Assembly: GCF_000331995.1 (NCBI RefSeq)
Contig: NC_020134.1
Location: 62,001 to 126,000, forward strand
DNA from: Thermoclostridium stercorarium subsp. stercorarium DSM 8532
GTDB taxonomy: Bacteria; Bacillota; Clostridia; DSM-8532
DNA: 64,000 nt
Reading direction: 5' to 3'
Shown: positions 8,573 through 16,185 of the stretch, piece by piece
How positions within the stretch are numbered: position 1 is the stretch's first letter
Layout: every line of letters begins with the position of its first letter
Made by a program: the position numbers and the translations under genes
Notes under the pieces: model-generated
Told to the model about the DNA's origin: nothing
The model's input: only the letters and a program-made list of their open reading frames with translations
Databases searched by the model: none

Positions 8573-8613
8573 AAAACGGGGGATGCCGTCGGTATTCAGG
8601 CATCCCCCGTTTT
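8573..8613. terminator. Bidirectional terminator between binding protein and rplY
   Basis: A 15-bp perfect stem (8573-8587 with 8599-8613) contains the GGGGGATGCC/GGCATCCCCC core, with A-rich and T-rich flanks. It serves the plus-strand ABC operon and the minus-strand rplY gene. Confidence 0.9.
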
Positions 8614-8625
8614 TTCGGGATTAAT

Positions 8626-9243
8626 TCACGCAGTTTCTTTTGCTTCCGCCGTTTCCTGCGTACCTGCGGCAGCAGCCTCTGACTCGGCTTCAGCTTCAGG
8701 CCCGGCCTCTGCCTTGACCACCTTCGCCACAATTTCGTCTTCTTTTGACAGAAGCTTGACACCGGCAGGCAGTTTTATATCACCCATTGTTATTTCACTG
8801 CCGTCAGTCATTTCTGATACGTCAATATCAATAAATTCGGGCAAATCCTTTAATACGCCCTGGATTTCAATTTCATCCTCGAGAATGTTCAGCACAAGCC
8901 TGTTCGAACCAAGCTTTTCCCTTCCAACAAACTTAAAAGGAACTGTTACTTTGACAACGCTGTTTTCAGAAGAGGCATAGAAATCAATATGTATCGGTTC
9001 CCTGTTTATTAATCCGTACTGTATCTCCTTTATCACGCACAAGTGTTTATTGCCGTTGACCATAACAGTTGCTTTTGAGCCTGTTGTATGTTCGTTGAGA
9101 AACCTGTTCATATCCTTCTGGCTGAACTGAACATTCATGCTGTTTTTTACTCCGGGTCCGTAAATCACGCCCGGGACATATCCCATTTTTCTGACCTTCC
9201 TTCCGCTTAATTTTCGTTCTTCGGCAACTATCAAGCTGCCCAT
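8626..9243 (-). CDS. rplY: 50S ribosomal protein L25/general stress protein Ctc
   Basis: 205 aa, the long Ctc form of L25. The N-terminal 5S-rRNA-binding domain has RKLSGRKVRKMGYVPGVIYG, then comes the TL5/Ctc beta domain, and the protein ends in a low-complexity Ala/Glu tail of about 30 residues. ATG follows GGGG at a normal distance. It starts 39 bp after the preceding minus-strand gene with no terminator between, so it may also be read from the CIRCE-controlled promoter at 12764-12792. Ctc is a general stress protein in Bacillus subtilis, which makes that linkage plausible. Confidence 0.92.
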   Translation of the reverse strand: MGSLIVAEERKLSGRKVRKMGYVPGVIYGPGVKNSMNVQFSQKDMNRFLNEHTTGSKATVMVNGNKHLCVIKEIQYGLINREPIHIDFYASSENSVVKVTVPFKFVGREKLGSNRLVLNILEDEIEIQGVLKDLPEFIDIDVSEMTDGSEITMGDIKLPAGVKLLSKEDEIVAKVVKAEAGPEAEAESEAAAAGTQETAEAKETA

Positions 9244-9282
9244 AAAAACATCCCCTTTCAGTCTGATTTATATTTAAAAGTT

Positions 9283-10350
9283 TTATGTTGCCATGTTTAA
9301 TTTGCCATAGTCCGCTGCCGATGCGTAAACATCGGATATCCGTAATGACGAAATGACATACGACACCAGGCTTTCTGCTCCCATATTCAGGTTAACGCCC
9401 TGTTCTGTGAGCCCGTCAAAACATGCTCCGCTTTCTTTGTCAATTAGCGGAAGGCCTTTCGAGTTCACACCTTCATACCAGGCGTGGCACATTTTTGCTT
9501 TTTGCAGGTAATCCCTGTTTCCGGTTATTTCATATGCGTCAAGATAGGTTAAAGCCGTTTCACAGGCTTCGACGGTCTGCTCGTCATATTCCGCGGGCAC
9601 CCCGCCCTTTAAATACCAGCCGTTGCACCCCACAGGCTTAAAGTAGCCATACCTGAAAGTAACGCCTTCGAGAAATTCAAGACTTTCCCTTGCCACGTCA
9701 AAAAATTTTCTTTCTCCTGTAACTTTGTAGGCCAGCATCAGTGACCATGGCATAATACTGTTGCAATATGCCACAATATTCTCAAACCATTTCCATTCAC
9801 CGTCTCTGTGGGCTTCATACTGCTCACAGAGGGACCGGGCCAAACCATAGACAATGTTTTTCGCCTGTTTGTCTTCGAGACGGGCAAGGCCTATTATCGT
9901 ATATGCCTTGGAGCGTGGCGATTTAAGAGACGGTATATTTGACATTGCTTTGTTCAGAAGGTGTAAAAGGCCGTATTTTACCCCCTTTGGAGTGTGCTCG
10001 TTTGAAAGGGCGTAACAGATTGCCCAGATGCATCTTCCAAAACAGTCTTCGGAGCCTTCCTCTTCAAGCCATTTTCTTTCATAGCTCATGAAATTTCTGA
10101 ATTTGCCGTTCTCATTCTGGGCGTTCAGCAAAAAGGACGTATATTTGTAAACAAGGCCAAGATATTTCCTGCTTCTGTATTTTTCATACAACATCAATGC
10201 CATTATCAAAGCCCTGGCATTGTCATCGGTTGTATAACCGAAAGTGGGATCGGGAACTGCGAACCTTGAGTGTTGCAGCATGCCGGTATCATCGGTTAAC
10301 CGGAAGATGTGGTCATCTTTCAATACGGTATTGAAAGCAACCTTTCCCAT
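9283..10350 (-). CDS. (alpha/alpha)6-barrel glycoside-active protein linked to GT4 enzymes
   Basis: 355 aa and all-helical. It carries motifs DDTGMLQHSRFAVP and FGYTTDDNARALIMA near the N-terminus and repeated helical-hairpin segments. From memory, the same domain is found fused C-terminally to GT4 glycosyltransferases in other bacteria and is often annotated glycosidase-related. Here it is separate, and its ATG overlaps the GT4 stop as TGATG at 10350, implying translational coupling. The reaction is unknown; processing or transfer of the sugar made by the GT4 partner is an inference. Cytoplasmic: no signal peptide. Confidence 0.65.
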   Translation of the reverse strand: MGKVAFNTVLKDDHIFRLTDDTGMLQHSRFAVPDPTFGYTTDDNARALIMALMLYEKYRSRKYLGLVYKYTSFLLNAQNENGKFRNFMSYERKWLEEEGSEDCFGRCIWAICYALSNEHTPKGVKYGLLHLLNKAMSNIPSLKSPRSKAYTIIGLARLEDKQAKNIVYGLARSLCEQYEAHRDGEWKWFENIVAYCNSIMPWSLMLAYKVTGERKFFDVARESLEFLEGVTFRYGYFKPVGCNGWYLKGGVPAEYDEQTVEACETALTYLDAYEITGNRDYLQKAKMCHAWYEGVNSKGLPLIDKESGACFDGLTEQGVNLNMGAESLVSYVISSLRISDVYASAADYGKLNMAT

Positions 10351-11525
10351 CAGACCACCATACTGCTCTGGAATTTGGATTTTTCCAGAGTATCAATGAA
10401 AAGCTTTGTATACTGATTTGCAATATTCCCCCACATCATTGTCATGCCAACACTCAGGGTACGCTTTTCCATTTCTTTCTTGGCCTTAGGATTGTCCAGC
10501 ACATACATAATTTTCTCGGCAAGCGAGCCGGCGTCTCTGAATTCTGCCAACAGGCCCTTTCCGTCCGCGAGCATCTCCTTTGCGTAACTGTACGGAGTGG
10601 ATACAATCACCCTTCCGTATCCTACCGCATAGGCGAGGGTTCCGCTTACCGCCTGATCCTTGCCAAGGTACGGTGTCATGTATATGTCCGACATTTGCAG
10701 GTAAGTTATAATTTCATCCTTTGTAAGGTATTTGTCGACAAACATTACATGTTCTTTTATGCCCAGACGCTCAACCAGTTCTATTAATTTCTCTCTGTAG
10801 CTTTCGCCGTGTTCTTTTTTTACAACCGGATGAGTCTGCCCGAGGATAAGGTAAATAACATCCTTATGCTTTTCCGCCACTTTTGCAATGGCTTCAATTC
10901 CGTATTCCAGCCCCTTACCCGGGCTTATCAGCCCGAAAGTGCTTATAACCGTCCGGCCCGAAAACCCGTGTTTTTCCTTTAATTTTTCCCTCGATTCAAC
11001 GATTCTGTACGGGACACCGTGCGGTATAACTTCTATTTTTGAAGAAGGTATGTCATACACGCTTTCAAGAATGGGGACTGTATTTTTTGCCATTGTAACG
11101 ATTTTCGCGCTTTTTTTACCGATGATTTCAAGTACTTCTTTCTGTTTTTCCGAAGGGCTGGGCAACACGGTATGGAGTGTTGTGATAAACGGAATTTTCA
11201 GGCTGTTAATAAAGTCGATAATATATTCGCCTGCTTCACCGCCGAATATACCGTATTCATGCTCTATAACAAGAAGTTCTATGTCGGAATCATTAACGGC
11301 CCTGGCCGCATTTGTATAGCTTTCCCTGTCGAACTGGGATATCTCCATTATAACACGTTTGCTGTAATTATATCTGTCATTGCTTACCGCAATAACGGCA
11401 GGTTTGTTTAAAAGGCTTATTTTGTCAAGTTCTCTCACCAGATCCTGAGTGAAGGTTGCAAGCCCACATTCCCGCGGAGGATATGTACTTAAAAACGCTA
11501 TATTCCTTATTCTGTTCGAAACCAT
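10350..11525 (-). CDS. Family 4 glycosyltransferase (GT-B fold)
   Basis: 391 aa. It has an N-terminal acceptor domain with the glycine-poor STYPPRECGLATFTQDL motif, and a GT4 donor domain with FGLISPGKGLEYGIEA, the ILGQTHP strand and the EX7E-type segment around YMTPYLGKDQAVSGTLAYA. It transfers a sugar from a nucleotide-sugar in the cytoplasm. Middle gene of a minus-strand operon: the nucleotidyltransferase upstream would supply the nucleotide sugar, and the (alpha/alpha)6 protein downstream is translationally coupled. Donor and acceptor sugars cannot be read from sequence. Confidence 0.85.
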   Translation of the reverse strand: MVSNRIRNIAFLSTYPPRECGLATFTQDLVRELDKISLLNKPAVIAVSNDRYNYSKRVIMEISQFDRESYTNAARAVNDSDIELLVIEHEYGIFGGEAGEYIIDFINSLKIPFITTLHTVLPSPSEKQKEVLEIIGKKSAKIVTMAKNTVPILESVYDIPSSKIEVIPHGVPYRIVESREKLKEKHGFSGRTVISTFGLISPGKGLEYGIEAIAKVAEKHKDVIYLILGQTHPVVKKEHGESYREKLIELVERLGIKEHVMFVDKYLTKDEIITYLQMSDIYMTPYLGKDQAVSGTLAYAVGYGRVIVSTPYSYAKEMLADGKGLLAEFRDAGSLAEKIMYVLDNPKAKKEMEKRTLSVGMTMMWGNIANQYTKLFIDTLEKSKFQSSMVV

Positions 11526-11575
11526 TTTTCAACCTCCTTCTTTGTATGTAACAGGGGAATAAATCATTCCCCTTT

Positions 11576-12619
11576 TCATACCGCCATTGTATAGCTGAGA
11601 TTGTCTGCAAGAATGGAATTGTACTGGTCGCTGTTTCTGTCGACTACGCAGTTGGACATAACCACCGAATTTACAACCGAAGCTCCTCCTTCAACATGGG
11701 CGTTATCCCAGACGATGCTTTCCACAACCTTTGCGTCGGTGCCGATGGTTGAGTTGCCGAATATAACGGTATTCGGGCCTATATTTGCAAATGATGAAAT
11801 TTCCACATTGTCTCCGATATACACCGGTTCCTTTATTTTTGCAAAACGGCTTATTTTAGCAGTTTTACTTATATATTGCGCATTTTTATTAAAATCATGC
11901 TCTTTTATTTTTATTAGTCCTTTCAGTATATCTTTGTGAGCTTTAAGGTATTTTTGAGGCGTGCCCAAATCCAGCCAGTAAGAACAGCGGTCGTAAATTG
12001 CCATTTTGTAACCTTTGCTGAGCAGCAGCGGATAAGTTTCCCGTTCAATGGAAACCGCCCGCCCTGCAGGAATTTCCTTCAATAATTCCGGTTCAAAAAT
12101 ATACACTCCTGCATTTATCAGGTTAGAACTGGTTTCATCAGGTTTTGGTTTTTCCTTGAAAGCGGTAATAAAGCCATTTTCGTCATGTTCTATAACCCCG
12201 TACGCCGACGGGTTGTCAACATGGGTAACAGCAATTGTTGCCAGTGCACCTTTCTGTTTATGGAAGCTAATCATGTCGGATATGTCAAAATCGCTTAAAA
12301 TGTCGGCATTGAATACCAGAAATGTATCATCGAAAAATTTCTCTGCGTTTTTAATTGCACCGGCGGTACCTAAAGGTTCATCCTCGCATATATAGCTTAT
12401 TTTAACGCCAAACCGGCTTCCGTCACCAAAATATTTTTTTATTTTGTTTGGTTTATAGCATGTGCTCAATACTATTTCACTGATACCGAATTTTTTTAAG
12501 TTTTCAATATTTCTTTCAAGCAGAGGCTTGCCCATAATCGGCACCATTGGTTTTGGCAGGTCGTTGGTTATAGGTCTCAGTCTCGTACCAAATCCGCCTG
12601 CTAAAAACAATGCCTTCAT
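11576..12619 (-). CDS. Sugar-phosphate nucleotidyltransferase (mannose-1-P guanylyltransferase-like)
   Basis: 347 aa. The N-terminal nucleotidyltransferase fold has the signature GGFGTRLRPITNDLPKP, Asp-containing FNADILSD and ITAFKEKP. The C-terminus is a left-handed beta-helix of hexapeptide repeats (about 245-340; PVYIGDNVEISSFANIGPN). This architecture is shared by GDP-mannose and glucose-1-phosphate pyrophosphorylases, so the exact sugar is uncertain. First gene of the minus-strand glycan operon. Its promoter contains a perfect CIRCE element, implying heat-shock induction through HrcA. Confidence 0.85.
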   Translation of the reverse strand: MKALFLAGGFGTRLRPITNDLPKPMVPIMGKPLLERNIENLKKFGISEIVLSTCYKPNKIKKYFGDGSRFGVKISYICEDEPLGTAGAIKNAEKFFDDTFLVFNADILSDFDISDMISFHKQKGALATIAVTHVDNPSAYGVIEHDENGFITAFKEKPKPDETSSNLINAGVYIFEPELLKEIPAGRAVSIERETYPLLLSKGYKMAIYDRCSYWLDLGTPQKYLKAHKDILKGLIKIKEHDFNKNAQYISKTAKISRFAKIKEPVYIGDNVEISSFANIGPNTVIFGNSTIGTDAKVVESIVWDNAHVEGGASVVNSVVMSNCVVDRNSDQYNSILADNLSYTMAV

Positions 12620-12730
12620 ATGTAAAACTCCTTTCTTTATGATTTAATTTTTCTTTTCTATGGTCACCCTTCCTTTCTGTGTGTTTTTTATATTATATAT
12701 ATTTCCCAAAAAAAGTAACAATATTCTTTA

Positions 12731-12757
12731 TTAGCACTCATCATTAATGAGTGCTAA
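12731..12757. promoter_or_regulatory. CIRCE operator (HrcA binding site)
   Basis: A perfect 9-9-9 inverted repeat: TTAGCACTC (12731-12739), nine-base spacer, GAGTGCTAA (12749-12757), identical to the CIRCE consensus. It starts 6 bp beyond the minus-strand -10 box and covers the expected transcription start, the classical position for HrcA repression of groESL and dnaK. Here the downstream gene is a sugar nucleotidyltransferase, not a chaperone. Confidence 0.95.
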
Positions 12758-12763
12758 TAATAT

Positions 12764-12792
12764 ATAATACATAATTTCCCCCCTGTTGTCAA
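12764..12792 (-). promoter_or_regulatory. SigA-type promoter of the CIRCE-controlled glycan operon
   Basis: On the minus strand a perfect TTGACA (12787-12792) is followed by a 17-base spacer and TATTAT (12764-12769). Transcription would start at about 12757, inside CIRCE, leaving a leader of about 140 nt before the ATG at 12619. Confidence 0.85.
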
Positions 12793-12942: not shown

Positions 12943-12971
12943 TTGACGCAATATGTTGTATATGTTATTAT
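12943..12971 (+). promoter_or_regulatory. Promoter of the nrdDG transcript
   Basis: TTGACG (12943-12948), a 17-base spacer, then TATTAT (12966-12971). The predicted start near 12978 is just upstream of the riboswitch P1 helix. Confidence 0.75.
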
Positions 12972-12992
12972 TTAAAATAACTACATATTGTT

Positions 12993-13150
12993 ATTACAGG
13001 TACTGCCTTGCGGCAGTTTAAAAGGGAAGCAGGTGAAAATCCTGCACGGTCCCGCCGCTGTGATGGGGAGGCATCCCATAACGTGCCACTGGGGAATCCC
13101 GGGAAGGAATGGGGTGTTGATGAACCAGAGTCAGAAGACCTGCCTGTAAT
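12993..13150 (+). promoter_or_regulatory. Cobalamin (B12) riboswitch aptamer
   Basis: Characteristic cobalamin-riboswitch blocks appear in order: GGGAA, GGTGAAAATCC, CCCGCCGCTGT, the B12-box-type GCCACTG (13085-13091), CGGGAAGG, and AGTCAGAAGACCTGCC. An 8-bp P1 closes it (12993-13000 with 13143-13150). It senses adenosylcobalamin or a related cobalamin and controls the downstream anaerobic ribonucleotide reductase genes. Confidence 0.95.
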
Positions 13151-13176
13151 GCCGCACCGTATACTCTACGAGCGAT

Positions 13177-13336: not shown

Positions 13337-15661
13337 ATGATTACGAAAATCAGGAAAAGGGACGGAAGAGAAGTACCTTTCAACATTGAAAAAATAATAA
13401 ATGCGATATACAAAGCAACCCGGGCCGCAGGAGAGGAAAACTATGAAAAGGCTGTGGAGCTGGCAGAAAAGGTGACCGAACGGCTCAATAAAGATCCTGA
13501 CAAAAAGATTCCCGGTGTGGAAGAAATCCAGGACGTTGTTGAAAGGGTTCTTATTGAAGATGGACTTGCGAAAACCGCCAAGGAGTACATATTATACCGC
13601 GCAGAACGTACACGTGTCAGAGAAATGAATACAAGACTGATGAAAATATACGAAGAGTTAACTTTTAAAGAATCAAAGGACAATGACCTGAAGAGGGAAA
13701 ATGCGAACATCGACGGTGACACGGCGATGGGAACCATGCTGAAGTACGGTTCCGAAGGCGCGAAACAGTTCTGCGAAATGTTCATATTAAAACCCGAGCA
13801 TGCAAAGGCCCATAAGGAAGGCGACATTCACATACACGATCTGGATTTTCTTACGCTTACAACAACCTGCTGCCAGATTGATATTATCAAGCTTTTCAAA
13901 AACGGATTCAGCACAGGGCACGGGCATCTCAGAGAACCAAACGACATTCACAGCTATTCGGCCCTCGCGTGCATAGCCATTCAGTCAAACCAGAATGACC
14001 AGCATGGAGGGCAGAGCATACCCAACTTTGATTACGGTATGGCTCCGGGGGTTGCCAAAACATACGCAAGGCTGTACAGACAGAACCTGGCTAAAGCCCT
14101 GGAACTGCTGGCAGGAGTTGATGATGCTGCGACACTTGTAAGCGAAATTTCAGGGAAAATTGAAAAGGAATACAATTTACGCCCTAAGTTAAACGCGGAT
14201 GAAGAATATTTAACGCTTGAAAAGGAACATCTGGCGGGATATATAAAGGACTTAGGTATAATCACAAAGGCGCAGGAATTTGCGAACCAAAAAGCATATG
14301 CCGAAACCGACAGGAGTACATACCAGGCAATGGAGGCCTTTATTCACAACCTGAATACAATGCACAGCCGTGCGGGAGCGCAGGTACCGTTCAGTTCGAT
14401 AAATTACGGCACCGATATTTCACCTGAGGGAAGGATGGTCATCAGAAATCTTCTTCTTGCCACCGAAGCGGGGCTCGGCAACGGAGAAACGCCCATTTTC
14501 CCGGTGCAGATTTTCAAGGTTAAGGAAGGCGTAAACTATAACCCCGGCGATCCGAACTATGACATGTTCAAGCTTGCCTGCAGGGTAAGTGCGAAAAGGC
14601 TGTTCCCGAATTTTTCGTTCATCGACGCGCCGTTTAATCTGAAATATTACAAGCCCGGCCATCCTGAAACCGAGATAGCGTACATGGGCTGCAGGACAAG
14701 GGTGATAGGAAATGTGTATGATCCTTCCAGGGAAATAGTTTACGGAAGAGGGAATTTGAGCTTTACAACAATAAACCTGCCGAGAATAGCATTAAAAAGC
14801 AATAAGGACATTGAGCTGTTTTTCAGCGAACTGGATAGCAAAATAGACCTGGTAATAGACCAGCTTCTGGAAAGATTTGAAATACAGGCGCGTAAGAAGG
14901 TTAAAAATTTCCCGTTTCTGATGGGCCAGGGTGTATGGATTGATTCTGAAAAGCTTGGCTGGGAGGATGAAATAAGGGAGGTTCTGAAACATGGAACCCT
15001 TACGACAGGTTTTATAGGCCTGGCGGAATGCCTGAAAGCCTTAACGGGCAAACATCACGGCGAATCCGACGAAGCCCAGCGGCTTGGCCTGAAAATCGTG
15101 GGGCATATGCGGAAACGAATGGACGAGGCGAGCAAAAAATACAATATGAATTTTACTCTTATTGCAACTCCGGCAGAGGGTCTGGCGGGAAGGTTTGTAA
15201 AACTGGACAGGCAGATTTTCGGCGTAATAGAAGGTGTAACCGACAGGGAATATTATACAAACAGCTTTCATGTTCCGGTGTATTATGAAATAAACGCCTT
15301 TGATAAAATACGGATTGAAGCGCCTTATCACGAGCTTACCAATGCCGGGCATATCACGTACGTGGAGGTTGACGGCGATCCCACGCAGAACCTTGAGGCC
15401 TTTGAGAAAATCATCAGGGCAATGAAGGAAGCAGGAATAGGCTACGGCTCGATAAATCATCCGGTGGACAGGGATCCTGTGTGCGGATATACCGGAATTA
15501 TCGGGAATACATGCCCCAACTGCGGAAGGGAAGAAAGAGACATTAAGTTTGAAAGGATTCGCCGAATTACAGGTTACCTTGTAGGTACCCTGGACAGGTT
15601 TAACGACGCGAAAAGGGCAGAGGAACGGGACAGGGTAAAACATATGTCCTTCAAAGTCTGA
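13337..15661 (+). CDS. nrdD: Anaerobic (class III) ribonucleoside-triphosphate reductase
   Basis: 774 aa from ATG 13337, placed 7 nt after AGGTGGA; the open frame upstream is only riboswitch leader. An N-terminal ATP-cone (KIRKRDGREVPFNIEKI) gives allosteric control. The glycyl-radical barrel follows, and the C-terminus holds a Cys-x-x-Cys zinc site (first Cys at residue 716; CGYTGIIGNTCPNCG) and the radical glycine at residue 746 in RRITGYL. It reduces ribonucleotides to deoxyribonucleotides without oxygen in the cytoplasm and needs the activase encoded next. Transcription is controlled by the cobalamin riboswitch just upstream. Confidence 0.97.
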   Translation: MITKIRKRDGREVPFNIEKIINAIYKATRAAGEENYEKAVELAEKVTERLNKDPDKKIPGVEEIQDVVERVLIEDGLAKTAKEYILYRAERTRVREMNTRLMKIYEELTFKESKDNDLKRENANIDGDTAMGTMLKYGSEGAKQFCEMFILKPEHAKAHKEGDIHIHDLDFLTLTTTCCQIDIIKLFKNGFSTGHGHLREPNDIHSYSALACIAIQSNQNDQHGGQSIPNFDYGMAPGVAKTYARLYRQNLAKALELLAGVDDAATLVSEISGKIEKEYNLRPKLNADEEYLTLEKEHLAGYIKDLGIITKAQEFANQKAYAETDRSTYQAMEAFIHNLNTMHSRAGAQVPFSSINYGTDISPEGRMVIRNLLLATEAGLGNGETPIFPVQIFKVKEGVNYNPGDPNYDMFKLACRVSAKRLFPNFSFIDAPFNLKYYKPGHPETEIAYMGCRTRVIGNVYDPSREIVYGRGNLSFTTINLPRIALKSNKDIELFFSELDSKIDLVIDQLLERFEIQARKKVKNFPFLMGQGVWIDSEKLGWEDEIREVLKHGTLTTGFIGLAECLKALTGKHHGESDEAQRLGLKIVGHMRKRMDEASKKYNMNFTLIATPAEGLAGRFVKLDRQIFGVIEGVTDREYYTNSFHVPVYYEINAFDKIRIEAPYHELTNAGHITYVEVDGDPTQNLEAFEKIIRAMKEAGIGYGSINHPVDRDPVCGYTGIIGNTCPNCGREERDIKFERIRRITGYLVGTLDRFNDAKRAEERDRVKHMSFKV

Positions 15662-15675
15662 GTCAGGTGGTTCAG

Positions 15676-16185
15676 ATGAATACATGTCTGAGAATTGCAG
15701 GAATTATAAGGGAGTCAATAGTTGACGGGCCGGGAATACGGATGGTGGTGTTTGCCCAAGGGTGTAAACATAAATGCCCCGGCTGTCATAACCCCGAAAC
15801 CCACTCTTTTGACGGTGGTACGTTGGTAACCATTAATTCGGTGATAGAACTTGCGAAAAAAAATCCTCTGCTGGACGGGATTACGTTCAGCGGAGGAGAG
15901 CCCTTTGAACAGGCTGAAGCGTTTGCCGCCCTTGCCCGGGAGGCCAAAAAGCTTAACCTTAATATAATGACCTATACGGGTTACACCTACGAGTATATTC
16001 TTGCGAATGCATCCCGGTACAGGGGATGGGGTGAATTGCTCGATGAAACCGATATACTTGTGGACGGAAGATTTGAACTGGAAAAAAGAAATTTGCTTTT
16101 AAATTTTCGCGGTTCGGAAAATCAGAGAATAATCGACGTAAAAAGGTCAAAAGCCGAAAACGCCGTTGTTGTTATTGATTTATAA
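15676..16185 (+). CDS. nrdG: Anaerobic ribonucleotide reductase activating protein
   Basis: 169 aa from ATG 15676, preferred over GTG 15667 because AGGTGG lies at 15665-15670. The radical-SAM cluster motif CKHKCPGC gives Cys30, Cys34 and Cys37, which bind [4Fe-4S]; the SAM-binding FSGGEPFEQ follows. It cleaves S-adenosylmethionine and abstracts hydrogen from Gly746 of NrdD. Fourteen bases separate it from nrdD, so the two form one operon under the cobalamin riboswitch. Confidence 0.95.
   Translation: MNTCLRIAGIIRESIVDGPGIRMVVFAQGCKHKCPGCHNPETHSFDGGTLVTINSVIELAKKNPLLDGITFSGGEPFEQAEAFAALAREAKKLNLNIMTYTGYTYEYILANASRYRGWGELLDETDILVDGRFELEKRNLLLNFRGSENQRIIDVKRSKAENAVVVIDL

Follow-up and report, generated by a model that had tools for sequence, protein, structure and literature searches.

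A CIRCE operator precedes a putative mannoside-synthesis operon in Thermoclostridium stercorarium and in many of its clostridial relatives

The repressor HrcA and its operator CIRCE constitute the class I heat-shock system, and the targets given in the accessible portions of the published work are chaperone genes together with a few others such as rpoH (PMC545781, PMC5727486). For the delta-proteobacteria, the accessible text of one of these sources predicts groESL, the hrcA operons and rpoH as targets (PMC545781). Here we analyze a perfect CIRCE located upstream of a four-gene operon in a stretch of 64,000 nucleotides (nt; hereafter the window), which corresponds to bases 62001-126000 of the 2,974,379-base single-contig genome of Thermoclostridium stercorarium subsp. 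stercorarium DSM 8532. The operon encodes a sugar-1-phosphate nucleotidyltransferase (NTase), a GT4 glycosyltransferase, an (alpha/alpha)6-barrel protein and the ribosomal protein L25. It resembles the known regulon in its perfect operator, in the promoter that abuts it, in the presence of hrcA in the genome and in sharing the operator with groESL and hrcA-grpE; it differs in the kind of genes controlled, and a sugar-synthesis operon is, as far as our searches reach, a new kind of HrcA target. Searches of an open-access library showed no report connecting HrcA with a glycosyltransferase or with mannose; RegPrecise and subscription papers lie outside that scope and may hold one. HrcA is absent from the main text of a binding-site survey of C. 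thermocellum (PMC8457756) and of an RNA-seq paper on C. stercorarium (PMC4102724). In a cold-shock RNA-seq study of T. tengcongensis, groESL and dnaK fell, and the words 'mannose' and 'glycosyl' are not found in the accessible part of the text (PMC3965559).

A related gene set has been described in Thermoanaerobacter (Teth514_1785-1789; Chiku 2014, PMC4264767), where, in the accessible portions of the paper, it is presented as one 12-gene salvage cluster; the word 'stress' does not occur in the text of that paper. In our locus L079 the orthologous NTase, GT4 and barrel genes have an orthologue of the 1,2-beta-oligomannan phosphorylase as neighbour, whereas the operon of the window has neither GH130 nor transporter genes and ends in L25. 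In the mycobacterial methylmannose polysaccharide pathway, the GT-B mannosyltransferase ManT and the (alpha/alpha)6 hydrolase MmpH work on a cytosolic mannan. ManT (7qsg) and MmpH (7qsj) are among the fold matches to the GT4 and barrel proteins of the operon, with Z values of 31.7 and 25.1, respectively, but neither is the best match, many other enzymes score equally, and no methyltransferase was seen in the window operon, so that the resemblance serves as a lead only. The mannogen of Leishmania is likewise a soluble intracellular mannan made from GDP-mannose and is suggested to be stress-responsive in the accessible text of PMC3290622; the enzymes and the organism differ, however, and mannogen serves as an analogy only.

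The presence of CIRCE at the NTase-GT4-barrel-L25 operon is confirmed. The operator, TTAGCACTC-N9-GAGTGCTAA, occupies positions 12731-12757 and is the sole match in the window, even when three mismatches are allowed; none of 100 shuffles of the window yielded a CIRCE. As the original prediction stated, it lies just downstream of a TTGACA-17-TATTAT promoter (12764-12792, minus strand), which agrees with the sigma-70 consensus at 11 of 12 positions and whose layout recurs at the sites of relatives. The distance from the end of the -10 element to CIRCE is 6 nt, and that from CIRCE to the first start codon is 111 nt. The promoter, read from 12792 to 12764, ranks first among 13 promoter-like sites between 8400 and 13000; taken by itself it proves little, because 9.7 such sites are expected in shuffled sequence. 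At the base composition of the window, about 5e-5 perfect CIRCEs would be expected in 2.97 Mb, compared with five found in the genome, which also holds one site with two mismatches and one with three. Of the remaining four, one each stands in front of groESL, a second groESL (its groES read by eye), hrcA-grpE and htpG. The assertion that CIRCE is classically restricted to groESL, dnaK and related operons does not hold strictly, htpG having one here. Chaperones or HrcA are encoded by every one of the five units with a perfect operator except the NTase-GT4-barrel-L25 operon. The repressor gene itself is present (TIGR00331, 350.6 bits against a cut-off of 197.2).

The operator is shared by many relatives. 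A search with an alignment of six GT4 sequences retrieved 297 relatives, of which the best 80 loci (the named loci; 1,176,751 bases) were kept. In them the number of CIRCE sites is 12, 27, 42 and 43 when up to 0, 1, 2 and 3 mismatches are allowed, while the reversed pattern gave none at any level and a swapped-arm control gave none at up to two mismatches and four at three. The 43 sites are spread over 40 of the 80 loci, and each is found 13-671 nt 5' of the operon's first detected gene. In these sites the arms are nearly invariant and the 9-nt spacer is variable. Of the 43, 24 stand directly beside a TTGACA/TATAAT pair that has no more than one mismatch (control rates of 0.2% at random and 0.1% at nearby positions), and 29 beside one that has no more than two (0.7% and 1.6%). 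The carriers, which include Thermoclostridium, Pseudobacteroides, Caldicoprobacter, Desulforamulus, Fonticella, Thermoanaerobacter, Caldanaerobacter, Thermoanaerobacterium, Caproiciproducens and Propionispora, span several clostridial families plus Propionispora, where the operon CIRCE (locus L076) also borders a divergent groESL. Gene detection was partial for the NTase of L072 and the GH130 of L063, and the NTase went undetected in L049 and L080.

The site is present in 33 of 40 loci whose GT4 is at least 60% identical to that of the window, in 7 of 31 at 55-60% and in 0 of 9 at 50-55%; a quick tree built from 81 GT4 sequences requires 14 changes of the CIRCE label, at least five of them forced by well-supported branches. 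Two broader samples, which overlap the named loci and are not added to them, gave the following: GT4 was found at E 1e-60 in 28 of 391 genomes of the class, and CIRCE at up to three mismatches lay upstream in 17 of these 28, in 7 of 10 family groups; 93 of 398 genomes of the phylum had a match, and among 40 regions fetched CIRCE was present in 12 of the best 20 after the window itself and in none of 20 chosen, non-consecutive regions further down. The proposal of HrcA control is strongly supported by this comparison, with the site in half of the named loci, and the outcome by which it was to be abandoned, absence of CIRCE from every close relative bearing the operon, is not what was found.

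In 14 whole genomes picked from the loci and searched at up to two mismatches, we found two to seven CIRCEs each and no match to the reversed control. The operon site was present in 12 and absent from two that had been picked as negatives. Nine of the 14 hold exactly three CIRCEs, and in eight of these nine the full set consists of groESL, hrcA and the NTase-GT4-barrel operon. Three further perfect sites were observed. In Pseudobacteroides (L206, 2017-2043), a second one about 16 kb from the operon lies next to a clpB-like gene (by eye), and on its other side are genes including a partial NTase paralogue and a mannose-6-phosphate isomerase. The site in Fonticella (L209, 2019-2045) adjoins rubrerythrin-like and desulfoferrodoxin-like genes (by eye), with an orientation that offers no clear fit to control. 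The one in Caproiciproducens (L211, 1972-1998) lies directly 5' of a small heat-shock protein gene, hsp20 by eye.

The gene content is as originally proposed. All four genes are read from the minus strand in the order NTase, GT4, barrel, L25, with intergenic gaps of 50, -1 and 39 nt. The first (11576-12619) encodes an NTase with a left-handed beta-helix end (Pfam PF00483), probably a mannose-1-phosphate guanylyltransferase judging from its gene context and a sub-threshold match to NCBIfam NF052502. The second (10350-11525) is a GT-B fold GT4 enzyme, probably GDP-mannose-dependent, with 70 bits to PF00534 (Glycos_transf_1; cut-off 26.4) and a structure model of pLDDT 92.1. Its acceptor cannot be named from the structure, because many GT-B enzymes match the model with similar Z values (27.8-36.3 among 50 matches listed); when six GT4 sequences were searched as a profile, solved relatives appeared only at E 1, all of them weak, and none at E 1e-10. 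At the places of the EX7E motif, judged by eye in alignment A5, Q290 is invariant and Y298 nearly so. The third gene (9283-10350) encodes a protein of 355 amino acids whose confident model (pLDDT 93.9) upholds the (alpha/alpha)6-barrel fold. The nearest structure is 7tem, of unknown function (Z 37.6, root mean square deviation 2.5, 332 residues aligned), followed by several 2-epimerases (Z about 29) and GH76 mannanases (Z about 28). The catalytic histidine pair of the N-acylglucosamine/cellobiose 2-epimerase superfamily was not found in the barrel protein, H27 being the sole histidine among invariant or nearly invariant columns of 58 sequences. Some genomes encode the GT4 and barrel proteins as a fusion; in locus L258 it is one protein of 729 amino acids, whose GT4 half is recognised by Pfam, and it suggests that the two act on one product.

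The last gene (8626-9243) encodes bL25/Ctc with a TL5 C-terminal domain (TIGR00731 above cut-off; Pfam). A hairpin 3' of it (8573-8613; -28.1 kcal/mol, z -5.3) is a probable transcript end, its U tail on the minus strand being weak. Membership of L25 in the operon, advanced with a 'perhaps', gains support from the relatives: L25 lies downstream of GT4 (within 4.5 kb, same strand) in 7 of 40 loci with CIRCE versus 0 of 40 others. Linkage to groES/groEL is telling but rare, being found in 3 of the 80 named loci: L047 and L052 have groESL downstream and co-directional, L076 has it divergent. Thermoclostridium caenicola has the order CIRCE-GH130-NTase-GT4-barrel-groES-groEL, with the groES start 68 nt past the barrel gene; in Pseudobacteroides a mutase gene precedes groESL; and in Propionispora the operon opposite groESL reads GH130-NTase-GT4-barrel-mutase-L25-mannose-6-phosphate isomerase. 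A protein of 233 amino acids adjoins the operon in six of the 80 loci (L058, L063, L066, L069, L073, L074); the one copy scanned has no family match.

Several neighbours point to mannose. On the GT4 strand, one or the other type of nucleotidyltransferase is encoded in 77 of the 80 named loci, in 23 of the 25 class regions and in 28 of the 40 phylum regions. The 17 Bacilli loci all lack an NTase in front of GT4-barrel and have a ManC-type gene behind it; two of these genes were scanned and score 329.5 and 334.7 bits (cut-off 372.95), and the longer ManC-isomerase of L080 passes with 558.5 bits. Class I mannose-6-phosphate isomerases recur beside the operon (two scanned, both above cut-off), as do PgmG-like mutases (two scanned, both below cut-off). 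GH130 lies on the strand of GT4 in 36 of the 80 loci. Because the neighbours include mannose-6-phosphate isomerase, a mutase, GH130 and a ManC-type gene that replaces the NTase, GDP-mannose is indicated and is the likely donor. The GH130 enzymes resemble both beta-1,4 and 1,2-beta types and so do not single out one linkage for the mannoside: the T. caenicola enzyme has TM1225 and a beta-1,4-mannooligosaccharide phosphorylase as its nearest matches, and that of Thermoanaerobacter is nearly identical to a characterised 1,2-beta-oligomannan phosphorylase. The suggestion of a mannose-based product is thereby strengthened as to the sugar, with a solute, an oligomannan and a glycan precursor all as candidate products; overall, the original prediction is partly supported.

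In the reading that we favour, to which we assign a probability of roughly 70%, HrcA would repress, and folding stress would induce, the synthesis of a cytosolic mannoside or oligomannan by a genuine, long-standing operon of the clostridial HrcA regulon. In the accessible portions of earlier work, HrcA is held active by GroEL and released once unfolded protein occupies GroEL (PMC6362236, PMC5727486), and we infer that this applies to the present operon. At normal temperature, HrcA kept active by GroEL would bind CIRCE beside the -10 element and block transcription; when unfolded protein occupies GroEL, HrcA would be lost from the operator and the operon transcribed along with groESL and hrcA-grpE. 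The NTase would convert mannose-1-phosphate to GDP-mannose, GT4 would move mannose onto a cytosolic acceptor, probably with retention (alpha), and the barrel protein would work on the same molecule, probably trimming or re-priming it. The resulting soluble mannoside or oligomannan would shield proteins or ribosomes, or be drawn on as a rapid reserve, and the GH130 phosphorylase of many relatives could recover or extend it. The analysis establishes the site, its promoter, the operon, their conservation and the surrounding genes, and HrcA binding, induction, substrate, product and protective role at the operon are what we infer.

A number of observations weigh against this reading. The site is missing from 40 of the 80 named loci and from 20 of the 59 that bear the NTase, including two Acetivibrio species, although less than 700 nt of upstream sequence was available in seven of the negative loci, five of them among these 20. 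G006, a family member with a complete operon, also lacks it, and neither the 17 Bacilli loci nor the 20 phylum regions at greater distance have one. CtsR as a stand-in was rejected, because no CtsR site turned up at three mismatches in up to 600 nt ahead of the first detected gene of any of the 40 CIRCE-negative loci; one of these (L095) has a degenerate CIRCE-like repeat with a 10-nt spacer, seen by eye and uncounted. The NTase matches many nucleotidyltransferase models and reaches the cut-off of none (best 25 of 42 matches), its best NCBIfam model, NF052502, giving 298.9 bits against 440, and the solved protein nearest to it by sequence is named UTP-glucose-1-phosphate uridylyltransferase, with mannose-1-phosphate guanylyltransferases ranking behind. 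GH130 enzymes use beta-mannosides and a retaining GT4 forms alpha links. No GH130 gene lies beside the window operon; the one GH130 match of the genome sits elsewhere with a GH26 gene. That pair (L215, 46-2605; about 1236545-1239104 of the genome), a GH26-CBM35 gene followed by a GH130 near TM1225 and beta-1,4-mannooligosaccharide phosphorylases, is a separate mannan-use locus. Finally, an hrcA deletion in T. kivui has no growth phenotype at 72 °C in the accessible text of PMC12044746.

Two alternatives accept HrcA control and change the product. The enzymes might supply a precursor for the glycosylation of proteins or of the cell surface (S-layer, secondary wall polymer) that is renewed after heat. 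GT4 enzymes frequently build surface glycans, and exopolysaccharide and lipopolysaccharide enzymes are among the weak NCBIfam matches of the present one, none of which comes near its cut-off; against this, no polymerase, flippase or lipid-carrier gene is among the recognised genes of the operons (the downstream genes being identified in part), and their recurrent partners are precursor enzymes, GH130, L25 and groESL. We regard surface or protein glycosylation as unlikely, if the best placed of the alternatives. Slightly less probable still is a glucoside made from UDP- or ADP-glucose, which would suit the nearest solved relative of the NTase and its sub-threshold scores, and the neighbouring mutases may take glucose phosphates. 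It fits poorly with the ManC-type enzyme that stands in for the missing NTase beside GT4-barrel in the Bacilli and in L080, with isomerases that pass the class I mannose-6-phosphate cut-off, and with a mannose-1-phosphate guanylyltransferase model as the best single NCBIfam match of the NTase.

Recycling of beta-manno-oligosaccharides to GDP-mannose as an energy-saving salvage, with heat a secondary link, follows the proposal of Chiku 2014, and the Thermoanaerobacter genes do adjoin two GH130 genes and transport genes in the accessible portions of that paper (PMC4264767). In L079, however, a consensus promoter and a CIRCE with two mismatches, past a terminator-like stretch (by eye), set NTase-GT4-barrel apart from the GH130 genes; in the window, as in other cases, neither a GH130 nor a transporter gene adjoins the operon; and the combination of GT4, barrel protein and HrcA control is left unexplained. 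We consider salvage improbable. That CIRCE is a chance or fading site, functionless here or serving the divergent nrdD, is very improbable: several operon-bearing relatives lack it and one of the same genus has a copy with three mismatches, but the near-invariant arms beside a variable spacer, the abutting promoter and the spread over several families speak against it. Control of nrdD was rejected as the principal explanation, given that this gene has its own promoter-like site (12943-12971) and a cobalamin riboswitch, and that loci in which nrdD is not adjacent, such as L052, still have CIRCE at the operon.

The riboswitch (RF00174, 130 bits; 12981-13161, plus strand) precedes nrdD and nrdG (13337-15661 and 15667-16185, plus strand), which encode the anaerobic ribonucleotide reductase and its activase; it probably mediates B12 repression of a B12-independent enzyme.

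Returning to a stress-induced mannoside, we advance a bolder form tentatively, as a possibility somewhat short of an even chance: a soluble mannan or mannoside may be a dedicated clostridial heat-shock product, a chemical chaperone or ribosome protectant that is co-induced with GroESL through HrcA and forms a third arm of the HrcA regulon next to groESL and hrcA-grpE. If the favoured reading is correct, HrcA, the textbook repressor of chaperones, would also run a sugar pathway in many clostridial families, and the conserved heat-shock response would include a metabolite. It would supply a concrete set of genes to work with and an entry point to uncharacterised families of GT4, barrel and GH130 proteins. 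The published mannose cluster of Thermoanaerobacter would partly be recast as a stress operon, and several of the carriers are thermophiles of industrial interest.

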